DNA of 64,000 nucleotides from Liolophura sinensis (lineage: Eukaryota; Mollusca; Polyplacophora; Chitonida; Chitonidae), in assembly GCF_032854445.1 (NCBI RefSeq), contig NC_088305.1, positions 20,137,717 through 20,201,716 of the forward strand, read 5' to 3'. The notes under the pieces were generated by a model, which saw nothing but the letters and a program-made list of their open reading frames with translations, was not told the origin of the DNA and made no database searches. Shown here piece after piece: positions 333-24,880 of this stretch. Position 1 is the stretch's first letter. Each line of letters starts with the position of its first letter. The translations under genes were made by a program, and so were the position numbers.

Positions 333-602
333 AAGCACCCCCCACCTCCCACATGACTCTTGCTGTCCAATGAAAACGAAGTGTTTTTTCTGATGCGGGA
401 TGAATGTGTATTAATGATTTCTTAACCTGAGAGATGGTTTCACACTGATGCCACTTTCTATTGTGACATCCAGTTACCTCATATTCCGCTCCTAAGGACT
501 GTGTGATTTGTGAGATGGTTTTACACAGAAGTAAACTTATACCGTAATGACAAGTAATCTTGTATTCTGCTCCTATTAGCGATATATCTGTGTTTTCTTC
601 AC

Positions 603-19611: not shown

Positions 19612-19741
19612 GTCAGCTTCGGGACCGGTAGATCCAGGATCAATCCTTGGTCGAGTCACACCTAAGACTTTAAAAGAGGAAGTTGTAACTTCCTCGCTTG
19701 GCGTTCAGCATGAAGGGGATAGTGCAACGACTGGTTGACCC
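19612..19741 (+). mobile_element. SINE-B, left half, split by the DNA transposon
   Basis: 5'-truncated SINE-B from TTCGGGACCGGTAGATCC to GACTGGTTGACCC. It continues at 24,591 with GTATCAGTATAATGG, exactly as in intact copies. The target-site duplication TTCACCATCGAT lies at 19,600-19,611 and 24,662-24,673. Confidence 0.88.
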
Positions 19742-19772
19742 GGGGGTCATTCTACCACAACAGTATATTTTA
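19742..19772 (+). repeat. Left terminal inverted repeat of the DNA transposon
   Basis: GGGGGTCATTCTACC then a variable 7 bp and TATATTTTA; pairs with 24,560-24,590. Confidence 0.88.
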
Positions 19773-20132
19773 TGTCCTAAGGCTCAGACAGCGCTAAACA
19801 AGACTATTTTCTTCAATATGAGAATGAAGATTTGCAGGAGTATGAAATACAAGACAATAACTGCTAAAATGTACTAGTTTGGCTTTAAAAAAGAGGCAAA
19901 TAACATGCTTTATGAATTGATTTGGTTTTGTGGTATTGGTAAAATGGCATGTCCCACAGTGAGTTTTGTATTAAAACATTACTTAAAATGCTCTTTTTTT
20001 GTGGAATTTCTATCTCCAGCCAAAATCAGTTGTTGCCGTTAACATTGAATAATATATGTAATAAGAAAATTACGTTGAAAATGTACAAATGCATTAAATA
20101 CAGCCTGTGAAAATGATGTCCCTTAGTGCTGT

Positions 20133-20550
20133 GTCAACTACGTTACCATGACACTTTCTGGTGAACTTAACAAGAGTTACATGCCCTTGATGACAACCAG
20201 ATCCCCCAGGGCAAAGGCGGGAAATTGCTGATCTTCAAAGTCAGGTTTGGTAAGTTTCTATGCATTTTTCGCCAAAAACTGTTGATTAATGGCTCAACCT
20301 AAATGGTCTGTCACTTAAATATGTCAACTATGTTACCATGATATTTTGCCAATCAAAGGTTTTACCTGAAAAAGTAATTAACAGTCTAATATATCTGATG
20401 TAATCAAATGCCTTTCACCTTAAGTAACTTCCATTGTCTGTGTACAGCACGGAGTTGTTGTTGTTTTTGTGCAGTTCTGTCAACAACGTTACTGTCAACT
20501 ACGTTACCTTGTACCTGGTAACGTGGGTGACATATGGTAACGTTGTTGAC
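20133..20550. repeat. Left subterminal repeat cluster (GTCAACWAYGTTACC)
   Basis: Forward copies at 20,133, 20,323, 20,479 (last base differs) and 20,494; reverse copies at 20,517 (one core variant) and 20,536. Likely transposase-binding sites, by analogy with other DNA transposons. Confidence 0.8.
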
Positions 20551-20634
20551 ATTTTAGATTAAAAGCTAAAGCGTAACCTAATACTATTTATTCTTATCAG
20601 AGCAGTGCGTCATAAAAGTCTGTTTTTGTTGCAG

Positions 20635-23098
20635 AAGAACTTTTCAAGAAGCATATACGGCAGGAATATGCCTCTATCTGCTGCAGAAAAAACAGCGTCG
20701 ATATAGACAACGTCGAGAAGCCCTGACGATAATGGAAACGGCAGGTATGTGTAGCTGATTAAGTTGTATTGTCTTCCTGTGAGATAGGCCCAACGTGTGT
20801 ATTACAAAAGCTGACAAATGGCAGATATGGCAATCCAAAATGAATTCTTGATTTTGTTACTGCTAGAGTTTTAGTATATATGTGCGCACAAAAGCTAAAG
20901 TATTATTTCTCATGGTTGTGTTTCAGAAGAGAAAGTGGACTTAGAAGGCGAAGGGCTCGGGCTAAACGCTCTGACATGAAAGACTTGACAGAAGCATTAC
21001 AGCAGGAGAAGAGGCGTGCAGAGCGCTACAGAAAGCGATACAACCGTCTTCTCAATCGCACATCAGACAGCCCTAGAAGTAAAAACTCATCAGTTACTAA
21101 GGAACTTTCATGTTGGGAAATCTGTCAGACAAACATTAAATTTCCACTTTGCCCTAGTCAGCGACCTGAAAGCCAAATACAAGGCGTCGCATCATGAGAG
21201 GAGGAAACAAATGGTGGCACGACTTTTGACTGGGAAAATAGTCAAACAGTATCGATTCCAGAAATTTGCGGAAGAAACTTTTGGCTTTTCCCAAAGAAGA
21301 TGGAAACATCTAGTCACTGGCTCCACGTGTAATGCAGACCCTTTTGATTTTAAGAAACGGAAGATGGCAGCGTGGGCCTCAAAGTTGGCATCACGTGTTC
21401 GATCCTTTTACATCCGGGATGATGTATCACGTATAACTGCTGGGAAAAAGGAGACAAAAATCCGAAATAAGCAGAAAATGCAGAAACCCTTTCTATGCGA
21501 CAGCTTGAAGGTGCTTCACATGAAATTTCTTTGAGAGAGCCCAAACATGAAGATATCATATTCTCTCTTCTGTCGGTTACGACCGTTTTGGGTAATTATA
21601 CCGTCCTCAAAGGACAGAGAAACCTGTCTGTGTAAAACACATGAAAACTTGAACCTACTTGTCCAAAAATTGCGTGACTTAAAACTTTTACAAACATCCG
21701 ACTTATGTCAAATGGCAGACAACATGGCTTGAGACAGAAATCAAAGGGCGTGCATGTACGGCGAGTGTGCATCATGCGTCTCGGTTCAAGTTCCAGTGGA
21801 AGAAAACTATGATGAGTTACAACAGGTAGAATACTGGCAATGGGTTTCCAAAAAGACAGAGAGAGTGCTGAAGTCCTCGGAAGTGAAGGAACAGAGGGTG
21901 ACGTCAAAGGATAAAATTTCAGAAAGACTGGTGGATGTGGTTAATTTGTTCCAGAAACAGATGAAGCAATTTCAGCGCCATTTATTTAACATACGTCACC
22001 AGTTTGCCTCTCTACGACAGTTGAAGGAAAACCTTAAGGATAATGAATGCATAATCCAGCTTGATTTCGCTGAAAATTATCTTTGTCAATATGCCACAGA
22101 AATACAGTCAGCACACTTTGGAGCCTCACACCAGCAAGTTACCTTACATGACGTGGTGCTTCAGGTAGGAAACATTCCAGAGGCAATAGCTATGTGCACT
22201 ATGTCCCCATCGCTGCAGCATGACCCACCTGCAATCTGGACATACCTAGAGCCTGTTTTTCAGTACATTAAAACCAAGTTCCCAAAGGTAGACACGTTGC
22301 ACTTCTACAGCGATGGCCCGTCCACCCAGTACAGACAAAAGAAAAACTTTTTCCTTTTCTGTACCAAAATATACCAGCAGGGTTTCTCATCAGCAACGTG
22401 GAATTTCTTTGAAGCTGGGCACGGTAAGGGCGCCCCTGATGGAGTAGGTGGGTCCATCAAAAGAGCAGCAGATCGCCTTGTTAATGCGGGCATAGATATC
22501 CCTGATGCTAAAAAAATGTTTGGGTGAACTAACGAAGTCAGAAACCAAAGTGAAAATGTTTTTCACTGACAGTTCTTCTGTTACCAATGCTACAAAGATG
22601 CTTCCCGAGAACATAGTAACCGTTCCTGGTACAATGGGCATTCATCAGATATGTACAACAAAGATGGGGTCAATGTATTACAGACAGATAAGTTGCTTCT
22701 GTAGCCATCCAGACACCTTACGGTGTTCTTGTTATGATGCCAAAGAGTTTGTGTTTCCGACATCTGAAATGACTACCCCTCAACAACCGACTCATGAGCC
22801 TTCACACACCGGCCTGACTCCTCTCGACATCACCGACCCTGACGTTATCGGAAAATGGTGTGTGGTAAAGTATATGTATGATGGGAAATATTACCCGGGT
22901 ATTGTGACAGGTGTGGATGAGAAGGATGTGGAAGTGAAGAGCATGTCGGCAGTTGGGGAAAACAGATTTTTCTGGTCAAGGTTTGACGATGTCGTCTGGT
23001 ATCGCCACGAGGACGTAATCTGCACCATTCCCGAACCGTGTAAAATTGGCACACGTCACCTGCAGATTGATAAAGAAATCTGGTCAAAGATAAATTGA
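20635..23098 (+). pseudogene. HGKG-family DDE-like transposase gene, disrupted
   Basis: Exon A (20,635-20,744) has the start MPLSAAEK then a basic QRRYRQRREA stretch. Exon B runs from 20,927 to the stop at 23,096-23,098. Recognisable in order: a basic coiled segment (about 20,960-21,050), FHFALVSDLKAKY, GFSQRRWKHL, FCRLRPFWV, YWQWV, then DFAENY (22,063), YSDGPSTQY (22,309), HGKGAPDGVGGSIKR (22,420), a Cys cluster CFCSHP..CSC (about 22,700) and an SH3/Tudor-like tail with VIGKWCVVKY and YYPGIVTG. The Asp residues of DFAENY and SDG plus an acidic residue near HGKG are plausible catalytic residues (inference). Breaks: extra A in A-runs near 20,690 and 21,080, an extra base near 22,520, in-frame TGA at about 21,532 and 21,730, and a phase mismatch between exons A and B. 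Confidence 0.8.
22840..23098 (+). other. C-terminal SH3/Tudor-like domain of the transposase-like protein
   Basis: Pattern GKWCVVKYMYDGKYYPGIVT, then a second strand block with VEVKSM and a W/R-rich turn (FFWSRFDDVVWYRHEDVI). The spacing fits a five-strand SH3-like barrel. Assignment by pattern only. Confidence 0.5.
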
Positions 23099-23175
23099 TC
23101 AATGATTTATTAATAAGTTTATCTGAATTCTTTCTGAATGTGTTAGTAAAGTTGCACAAGTCGTCTTTGGCCAGA

Positions 23176-23181
23176 AATAAA
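23176..23181 (+). terminator. Polyadenylation signal AATAAA of the transposon gene
   Basis: AATAAA lies 78 nt after the stop codon and before the inserted SINE at 23,256. Confidence 0.6.
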
Positions 23182-23255
23182 GTATGTGTAACCTACAGAT
23201 TAAATGAAGACTCTCTTTTATTCTCTTCAATTGAGTGAAACCTCAATGCAGAATT

Positions 23256-23613
23256 ACCAACCCCGATAGCTCAGTTGGTAAGGGCGCTCGCTTCAGGTCC
23301 GGGAGATCCAGGATCAAACCTCTGTCAGGTCACACCTAAGACTTTAAAAGAGGTAGTTGCAGCTTCCTTGCCAAACGCCCGGCATTTAGGGGATAGTGAA
23401 ACGACTGGTTGGCCTTACCAGTATAATGGTTCGGAGAGGGTTTGTTGGGTGCCTTTGGCAAGTCATCTCTGTGACACAGCACCTTATAAAAGAGCGGTGG
23501 AAATCCGCCCTGCAACAAGGAGGTACATAACATGTGCACACACCCTAATGACTCCTCGTCGTCATGTGACTGAAATATTGTTGGTACGACGTTAACCCTA
23601 AGCATTCATTCAT
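23256..23613 (+). mobile_element. SINE-B inserted inside the DNA transposon
   Basis: tRNA-like head GATAGCTCAGTTGGTAAGGG with GGATCAAACC, full body, and tail AAGCATTCATTCAT. Flanked by the duplication TCAATGCAGAATT at 23,243-23,255 and 23,614-23,626, so it landed after the transposon. Confidence 0.88.
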
Positions 23614-24009
23614 TCAATGCAGAATTCTATTTTTATATCGTTTCGATGTTAACCGGTGTTATAATGTTTGGAAGACTCCCACCATGAACAAGATCGCAGT
23701 TTCAGTGTCCAAAGTTCCTCTGCTTGAAATATTTTTTTGGGCCTGAATCGCAATATACATGTATGTGTTGGCGCTGCTCTGCATGTGGCTGTATGTGGAG
23801 TTGTACTTTAACAAGGTCCATTGCACGTCACGTGTGGTTCATAACTCCACTTCCCAGATACACTGGTCGCTATCATGTGAGACTCCGTGAAAAATTCTTG
23901 TTGTGGTGTAAAACAACAACCAATCAGATCAATAACCTGTTGTATGTTGAAATCTGTTGGGTAAGAAAAACAGATTTTGGTCTCCACACACAGGTACTGT
24001 GTTACTTTT

Positions 24010-24400
24010 GTCAACAACGTTACCGGTGTCAACTATGTTACCAGAGCTGTCCACTACGTTACCACACATAAAACGCTTATTCAATACTAATGCATAAGCG
24101 CACATTGAACGCTCTGGTGTCATTTACAGCGGCTCCGTACACTTCTTTGTTTGTATAAACGTCTTTGTCAGAATTGACATTGTATGCCTTCTGAGTGCAT
24201 TGACTGGGTGCATATATTGTGTTTGGGGTCCTGAATTGGGTATAAATAGTCAAAATATCAAAACCATCCAAAATCCCGGTTACATTATCATATGTTATCG
24301 TGCTAAGGACACTTAATTATTAACATCATAGGGTATGTAAATATGCACTATCGACGTTTGGCATTCACTCACGTAGAAGTTTGTCGGTAACGTTGTTGAC
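24010..24400. repeat. Right subterminal repeat cluster (GTCAACWAYGTTACC)
   Basis: Copies at 24,010, 24,028 and 24,049 (GTCCACTACGTTACC), plus a reverse copy at 24,386. Same motif as in the left cluster. Confidence 0.8.
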
Positions 24401-24559
24401 CGAGTTTTGATCTCAAGCGGAAGGAAAGTTTGTAAAAAATCACTAGATATGGAGTTTGATGTTGCACATTGTGGCATATGAATGAGTAAATATATACAAA
24501 TCAGGGAAATGAAGTTCAATCAGTTCCTTCAGCTAAAAATTATGAACTATTGGCCAGAC

Positions 24560-24590
24560 TAAAATATACCCTTACGGTAGAATGACCCCC
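24560..24590 (-). repeat. Right terminal inverted repeat of the DNA transposon
   Basis: TAAAATATACCC...GGTAGAATGACCCCC, the inverted partner of the left end with four mismatches, all in the 7-bp middle. Confidence 0.88.
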
Positions 24591-24661
24591 GTATCAGTAT
24601 AATGGCTCGGGCGGGGCGGCTTACTTGCCTTCGGTAAACCCCAAGCACTTAGGCCTACTCA
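24591..24661 (+). mobile_element. SINE-B, right half, split by the DNA transposon
   Basis: Starts GTATCAGTATAATGGCTCGG; an internal deletion joins CCTTCGGTAA to ACCCCAAGCACTT. Followed by the second copy of TTCACCATCGAT. Confidence 0.85.

Positions 24662-24796: not shown

Positions 24797-24797
<1 letters not shown>

Positions 24798-24874
<77 letters not shown>
24798..24874. repeat. (TA)n microsatellite
   Basis: About 38 TA units, preceded by GCGCGCACG and followed by ACACATCATGG. Confidence 0.97.

Positions 24875-24880
<6 letters not shown>

Follow-up and report, generated by a model that had tools for sequence, protein, structure and literature searches.

A probable Sola-like transposon family in the mollusc Liolophura sinensis with candidate transposase-binding motifs at multiples of about 190 bp

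Among known DNA transposons, hAT leaves an 8-bp target duplication and Academ one of 3–4 bp, Academ elements of some lineages carrying an XPG nuclease or a helicase, and the target of Sola3 is TTAA. As set out in the relevant sections of PMC10741241, Tc1/mariner duplicates TA, Ginger has TG...CA ends with terminal inverted repeats (TIRs) of 40–270 bp, and Sola combines a DDD transposase (three catalytic aspartates) with 4-bp duplications, lengths of mostly 2–9 kb and very variable ends whose TIRs measure 11–1124 bp. AWWT duplications are reported for Sola2-type elements of Dictyostelium in the corresponding part of PMC3627910, and the target of piggyBac is given as TTAA in the abstract of PMC7351741. 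Here we describe a transposon copy in a 64,000-nucleotide stretch of DNA from Liolophura sinensis (contig NC_088305.1, positions 20,137,717 to 20,201,716 of assembly GCF_032854445.1; hereafter the window), together with its relatives. The results argue, with a probability that we put at roughly 0.8, for a Sola-like cut-and-paste family that has a DDD transposase and leaves 4-bp duplications, and whose transposase would bind subterminal motifs placed at multiples of about 190 bp.

The element was compared with its siblings in the genome from which the window comes (632 contigs, 609 Mb). When at most 3 mismatches were allowed, the 29-bp end pattern was located 11 times and the reversed control pattern not once. 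Ten of the 11 places make up five facing pairs. The pairs correspond to five two-ended copies with the same ends, namely the window copy and its siblings on C6, C3, C11 and C1. Since the blast match of the C6, C3 and C11 copies to the window stops at bases 19744 and 24588, the element is exactly 4845 bp long; the C1 copy has identical ends. The inverted ends on which the original prediction was built are thus present (arms 19736–19772 and 24560–24596 are 84% complementary in a self-comparison of the window), and its bounds were 2 bp off on each side. Ends without the gene were found as recognisable pieces of the window family and not in unrelated contexts: C1 is a 3539-bp deletion derivative that has both ends and lacks the catalytic region, and C4 is a solo end. 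A 14-mer end pattern gave a single match on C13 with no partner, at the level of the reversed control.

A search of the same genome with the catalytic core (169 residues) gave 63 matches at E ≤ 0.001, four of them 96–100% identical. Related families, whose ends differ from those of the window family, were found through the protein, with core identities to the window protein of 56% (L028), 52–53% (family A), 43–44% (B), 39–40% (D), 32–33% (C) and 31% (L052). The siblings are 92.0–98.6% identical to the window copy over aligned pieces, and the family B copies, one of which has an 855-codon stop-to-stop frame, are 98.6–99.6% identical to one another. These identities suggest recent movement, and the window element family is apparently a recently active cut-and-paste transposon.

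The original prediction gave the target duplication as 0 or 2 bp (CG), which does not hold. A perfect 4-bp duplication flanks 14 of the 15 resolved two-ended copies in five related families, the window copy being the only imperfect one. The duplications are GTAT, CACA, TTAT and AGCT for the C6, C3, C11 and C1 siblings, GTAT, AGCA and TAAT for family A (L016–L018), TTAT, ATAT and TTAT for family B (L019, L020 and L022), CTTT, TATA and ATAG for family C (L023–L025), and AGAA for L028; L021, L026, L027, L052 and L054 were left out of the count as one-ended or unresolved. Two flanking 4-mers match by chance in 0.5% of cases. A or T makes up 45 of the 56 duplicated bases, compared with 60% of the flanks. 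As the longest exact flank match is 4 bp in 14 of the 15 copies and none of the 15 has one of 5 to 10 bp, hAT was rejected, and so was Tc1/mariner, the duplications here being 4 bp. Ginger was likewise discarded, the ends here being GGG..CCC, GAG..CTC or CATG..CATG, with no integrase-core model among the Pfam matches.

The window copy interrupts a short interspersed element (SINE), as originally predicted. The left part of this SINE is 82% identical to the SINE part carried inside the element (two copies of one SINE family), and the uninterrupted junction is found, with one mismatch, at five places in the genome. Four of these five read GGTTGACCCCGTATCAG, which makes the register of the window duplication ambiguous within a C/G run; the flanking 4-mers CCGG and CCGT agree at three of four positions, and the window copy has probably been slightly altered since insertion.

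A single gene carries DFAENY, SDGPSTQY and HGKGAPDGVGGSIKR in one reading frame (21733–22527), in agreement with the original prediction. In-frame stops end at 21534 and 21732, the reading frame shifts near 21.08 and 22.51 kb, and about 200 bp (191–204) present in the four other two-ended copies are missing after 20718 (element position 975). With these lesions the window copy is no longer intact and represents a broken remnant. The C6 sibling keeps a 751-codon stop-to-stop frame, preceded by an exon-like frame with MPLSAAEKQRRYRQRRDADPE.... The original prediction of a transposon is supported, although it did not mention that the window copy itself is broken.

The aspartates of SDG and HGKGxxDG are invariant, and that of DFAENY nearly so, in 12 aligned members (alignment A3); in the 7-row alignment A1 they correspond to the invariant D408, D491 and D533 of P0001, separated by 82 and 41 residues. 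They plausibly represent D1 (DFAENY), D2 (SDG) and D3 (HGKGxxDG) of a DDD triad, the first two being those that the original prediction had named for its fold check. Among the translated loci, phmmer linked the core to L039, a protein with DUF7869 (PF25273, a Pfam domain of unknown function), at E 2e-5. When the HGKG-family and DUF7869 alignments were compared with hhalign, they matched with a probability of 95.1%, E 3e-8 and a score of 72.9, the three Asp being aligned, against scores of 14.4 for the reversed alignment and at most 20.6 for five column shuffles; without L039 the values were 60.7%, E 8e-5 and 46.7. The comparison indicates that the window protein is distantly homologous to DUF7869.

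In hmmscan runs on the window core, three other window frames, seven relatives and four C-terminal pieces, no Pfam model reached its cut-off, and PF25273 (cut-off 26 bits) was not listed for the window core and the three frames (E ≤ 10) or for six relatives (E ≤ 1). The best match, at E 0.0075, was that of the PHD-like C-terminus of family C, which scored 17 bits where the cut-off is 23.9. This C-terminus (L024) is a PHD-finger-like Cys/His tail (PF22908, below cut-off), and the other families have a different small C-terminal domain. A PDB sequence search with the full profile returned seven weak matches, all at E 0.81 or higher and none of them to a transposase. With the C-terminal domain it returned 21 matches, 18 of them BRD2; the top two, to a DUF724-domain protein (E 0.32) and to an Agenet-domain protein (E 0.35), are not significant.

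As regards fold, an AlphaFold model was built from a two-row alignment (window and L052); single-sequence prediction was useless (pLDDT, predicted local distance difference test, 38). Weak as it is, the model shows the order beta-beta-beta-alpha-beta-alpha-beta-alpha and places D1 on strand 1, D2 behind strand 4 and D3 ahead of the last helix. Most of its neighbours in the PDB, all at E > 0.001, are structures of RNase H, Argonaute PIWI, RuvC, terminase nuclease or integrase. Thus the order and the Asp positions agree with the RNase-H fold that the original prediction had proposed to look for, and an RNase-H-like core is weakly supported, the model being support and not proof.

DUF7869 is itself tied to defined ends in this genome. 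One family of DUF7869 elements has ends GAAGAGC...CTCTTC and, in three copies, the duplications ATAT, ATAT and ACAT. It resembles the window family in its aligned D-D-D, its DFxxN-, SDxxxxQ- and GHxxxxxD-type motifs and its 4-bp duplications (one resolved family), and differs in having other ends and a length of 2.9 kb, while the window family lies below Pfam detection. It showed no repeated 10-mer array. As a second family (L044, L047, L048 and L049–L051), these elements include three copies 99.5–99.8% identical over aligned pieces and a 451-codon stop-to-stop frame, and the family is probably recent. Another DUF7869 group (L040–L042) had no resolved ends.

By its anatomy the family works like Sola, a likeness drawn through the published description and not through sequence. 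It is supported because all the described features agree: the aligned Asp (catalysis predicted), the 4-bp duplication, the variable ends, lengths of 2771–5151 bp within the 2–9 kb range, and ends inverted over their terminal 11–13 bp (one mismatch in family A), which satisfies a TIR of at least 11 bp. What was first called a transposon of uncertain superfamily can hence be called Sola-like, and the uncertainty partly persists. We regard it as slightly better than an even bet that the family simply belongs to Sola (as Sola1, Sola2 or Sola3) or to some other superfamily named in Repbase. Besides the shared features (PMC10741241, sections cited above), the ATAT duplications of the DUF7869 element fit the Sola2-type AWWT described in that part of PMC3627910, and a curated mollusc library contains 14 Sola2 and 8 Sola1, but 100 Academ, in the portion of PMC10294476 that gives these figures. 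Membership is nevertheless argued from published descriptions, and AWWT fits only one of the 14 perfect duplications of the HGKG family. TTAA occurs in none of the 14, which speaks against Sola3 and rejects piggyBac. The 4-bp duplication would also fit Academ; no nuclease or helicase Pfam match appeared at E ≤ 1.

Seven families were each represented by one element in a de novo count of 10-mers, in which a short motif proved dominant in the subterminal region at either end. The motif is 13–15 bp long and has its own letters in each family: GTCAAC(T/A)A(C/T)GTTACC in the window family, TGTCAGTGGTGTTAC in L028, TGTCATTTCCGTAA in A, TCCACTCCGTTACC in B, GTGATTCCGTCACG in C, GAAATGTTCGTTAC in D and GTACGTCCAACAC in L052. 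Each of the five elements from duplication-verified families holds it 8 to 12 times (at most 3 mismatches), compared with means of 0.15 to 2.0 after shuffling. Similarity between sites ends with the motif (modal fraction 0.93–0.97 inside, 0.43–0.51 outside); an origin of the array as relic tandem duplications was rejected because similarity is confined to the motif and the flanks of the sites are unlike. As the motif letters also differ between families, it seems that the geometry of the ends is conserved while motif specificity drifts.

The positions of the sites (Table 1) were tested for a period using clusters more than 60 bp from an end, which leaves out the C and L052 sites at 20 bp from the 3' end. 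The 23 clusters of the five duplication-verified families gave a period of 189 (R 0.955), reached by 0 of 5000 random sets, and the 35 clusters of all seven families a period of 182 (R 0.876), which was reached by none of 5000 uniform sets and by none of 5000 sets of random phase. Single-family periods range from 179 to 193. Within 30 bp of a multiple lie 33 of the 35 clusters for 190 and 24 of the 35 for 182.

Table 1. Features of the window (positions counted from its first base) and, in the last seven rows, centres of the subterminal sites of each family in bp from either element end (at most 2 mismatches)
Feature	Position	Strand	Remark
Whole transposon copy, 4845 bp	19744–24588	+	bounds shared with siblings on C6, C3, C11 and C1
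Left TIR	19744–19772	+	GGGTCATTCTACC...
Right TIR	24560–24588	-	...GGTAGAATGACCC
Left target 4-mer CCGG	19740–19743	.	imperfect duplication
Right target 4-mer CCGT	24589–24592	.	imperfect duplication
SINE interrupted by the element, left part	19616–19740	+	from comparison with second SINE copy and uninterrupted junctions
Part of SINE carried inside the element	23290–23414	+	also in C6, C3 and C11 siblings
Subterminal site GTCAACTACGTTACC	20133–20147	+	about 2 x 190 from 5' end
Subterminal site	20323–20337	+	about 3 x 190 from 5' end
Four-site cluster, two + and two -	20479–20550	.	about 4 x 190 from 5' end
First coding exon remnant, begins MPLSAAEK	20668–20744	+	start codon and splice sites predicted from sequence
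Probable intron (GT...AG)	20745–20926	+	predicted, sequence reading
Second exon, transposase pseudogene	20927–23098	+	two in-frame stops, frame changes
Open catalytic core	21733–22527	+	D codons 22063–22065, 22312–22314, 22438–22440
Three-site cluster	24010–24063	+	about 3 x 190 from 3' end
Subterminal site	24386–24400	-	about 1 x 190 from 3' end
Window sites	5': 397, 587, 743–800; 3': 196, 533–572		
Family B sites	5': 394, 584, 742–796; 3': 188, 368–408		
L028 sites	5': 380, 572, 740–785; 3': 197, 538–576		
Family A sites	5': 396, 742–788; 3': 194, 574		
Family C sites	5': 404, 558–602; 3': 20, 198, 386–408		
Family D sites	5': 188, 384, 568, 724–738, 1072–1090, 1452; 3': 364, 730		
L052 sites	5': 371, 526–562; 3': 20, 189, 377–398		

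Taken together, these features are consistent with the following mechanism. One gene, probably spliced, would encode a transposase of about 800 residues, made up of a basic N-terminal part that presumably binds DNA, an RNase-H-like D-D-D core, a segment with Cys residues and, at the C-terminus, a small domain. The placement of the 13–15 bp motifs at both ends, in both orientations, and their conservation suggest that the transposase binds them, clustered as they are at about 190-bp multiples from either end. The bound clusters would let the two ends gather, perhaps across positioned nucleosomes, whereupon the short TIRs (11–29 bp) would be brought into the active sites. Finally, a 4-bp staggered strand transfer by the DDD transposase, which the ends, the duplication and the homology argue for, would leave the 4-bp duplication. 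Going one step further, we infer that the spacing of about 190 bp may reflect nucleosome spacing.

Several observations weigh against this reading. With regard to the protein, V replaces D1 in the C11 copy, and the AlphaFold model has a mean pLDDT of only 50.9 and a pTM (predicted template modelling score) of 0.52. Its PDB neighbours also include ARF1, a GTP-binding protein and a designed protein, Foldseek found no match at E ≤ 0.001 in the PDB and viral sets (transposase families missing from its lists are not thereby excluded), and the best VIA Z of 8.3 is barely over the 7–8 typical of models without a clear match. As to the ends, L052 has inverted ends (GGGCAATTCCAT...ATGGAATTGCCC) and no 4-bp duplication, and those of family D were set by alignment bounds alone, without a duplication. 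The shuffle control for the motifs covered the five duplication-verified families. Taken family by family, random sets reach the observed periodicity in 22 to 386 of 5000 cases for six families (0 of 5000 for D), and the site positions are not independent, since the families share ancestry. A held-out check on four extra loci found the array in one (L055, 5' side; spacings 171, 186 and 364). The other three had no convincing ends or array: L056 showed one TIR-like pair of poor identity and repeats that form an unrelated tandem array, L057 neither ends nor array, and L058 one 10-mer three times, two occurrences being 196 bp apart, which is too weak to count. Lastly, the AT content around 33 clusters displayed no linker-like pattern.

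The cause of the spacing can be read in more than one way. It may stem from a rigid protein–DNA assembly, such as a large transposase multimer of fixed geometry, or from a promoter constraint, and not from nucleosomes, an account we consider possible without expecting it to prevail. Because the register between families is exact, a rigid complex is an equally possible cause: all six 5' sites of the window and family B agree within 5 bp, which is tighter than expected for nucleosomes, and the missing linker-like AT pattern points the same way. The 5' sites also lie upstream of the coding part, in what may be a promoter-like place; the 3' side, however, is spaced similarly. Moreover, the inner 3' cluster lies about three units from the end in the window family, L028 and A but two units in B, C and L052, a shift of about one unit (553–574 versus 388–397) that would be expected of a repeating unit of near-nucleosome size.

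A chromatin ruler is a more tentative proposal, which we think unlikely as it stands. Here each nucleosome repeat, numbered from the outermost base (1x, 2x, 3x and 4x, and up to 8x in family D), would hold one cluster for the transposase to bind. The transposase would then recognise its ends and pair them on the nucleosome fibre and not on naked DNA, and selection would act on the ruler while the letters change with the DNA-binding domain. The resemblance of the C-terminal domains to chromatin readers (Agenet-like, PHD-like), which is not significant, would weakly fit such a ruler.

It is improbable that the common site positions are merely inherited by relatives that have yet to lose an ancestral spacing. 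The families are indeed related (core identities of 31% to 56%), but the terminal non-coding DNA of the window copy can hardly be aligned with its counterpart in L028, A, B or C (the best blastn match has E 7e-4 and is out of register), the motif letters have changed, the number of sites and the unit counts differ, and unconstrained DNA would be expected to lose the register. That the HGKG protein is a host or domesticated gene is highly improbable and is refuted for these copies, in spite of the large open frames and the statement in the original prediction that such proteins are widely annotated as uncharacterised, for the protein is multicopy in this genome and identical ends and 4-bp duplications surround it at many sites, which speaks against the host gene in conserved synteny that the original prediction had named as a refuter; single-copy domesticated relatives may exist elsewhere.

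Outside this genome, a full-length relative with a 705-codon frame, L052, was found on JAAEPJ010000558.1, a contig labelled as a bacterial metagenome-assembled genome and probably a eukaryotic contamination of it. It is the only one of 73 pattern stretches confirmed in prokaryote contigs, and since its contig is taken as eukaryotic, nothing at this sensitivity points to a relative in prokaryotes. Three scans of viral contigs confirmed none of 23, 13 and 3 pattern stretches. A literature search for the protein motif strings and for DUF7869/PF25273 gave no match, and GQNKN did not occur among the matches listed.

With respect to the surroundings, the element both contains part of a SINE and has inserted into a second copy from that SINE family, and a long (TA)n run lies just outside it at 24797–24876. 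Two loci of different families, L023 and L026, share a near-identical left flank (...ttcacgc.gccttt) directly before the first aligned base, as if both had inserted at one spot of another repeat.

By tying a protein family without a Pfam model to transposon ends and a 4-bp duplication, these results allow such proteins to be classified and not mistaken for host genes. The 190-bp ruler offers a testable handle on the way in which transposases of eukaryotes locate their ends in chromatin and pair them, and family B, with its high mutual identity and long open frame, suggests that laboratory tests are possible. We do not assert that either the ruler or the family is new to the literature.

The subterminal repeats of CACTA/En-Spm and hAT consist of many short transposase-binding motifs and in this resemble the candidate sites described here; we know of no 190-bp ruler in these superfamilies, and their duplication sizes differ from 4 bp. 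With Sola the family shares the DDD transposase, the 4-bp duplication, the length of 2–9 kb and variable, TIR-bearing ends (PMC10741241, sections cited above). The likeness is drawn from descriptions, 13 of the 14 duplications here are unlike the AWWT of some Sola2 elements, and the portions of the Sola literature examined mention no 190-bp site ruler. The inverted repeat/direct repeat (IR/DR) structure of Sleeping Beauty also has two spaced transposase sites per end, and a passage of a review of this transposon considers that tight chromatin may bring distant sites together (PMC7827188). Sleeping Beauty, however, follows Tc1/mariner chemistry (TA) and has its two sites within a TIR of about 220 bp, whereas elements of the window type have up to six sites on one side, which lie outside a short TIR and reach about 800 bp inside.

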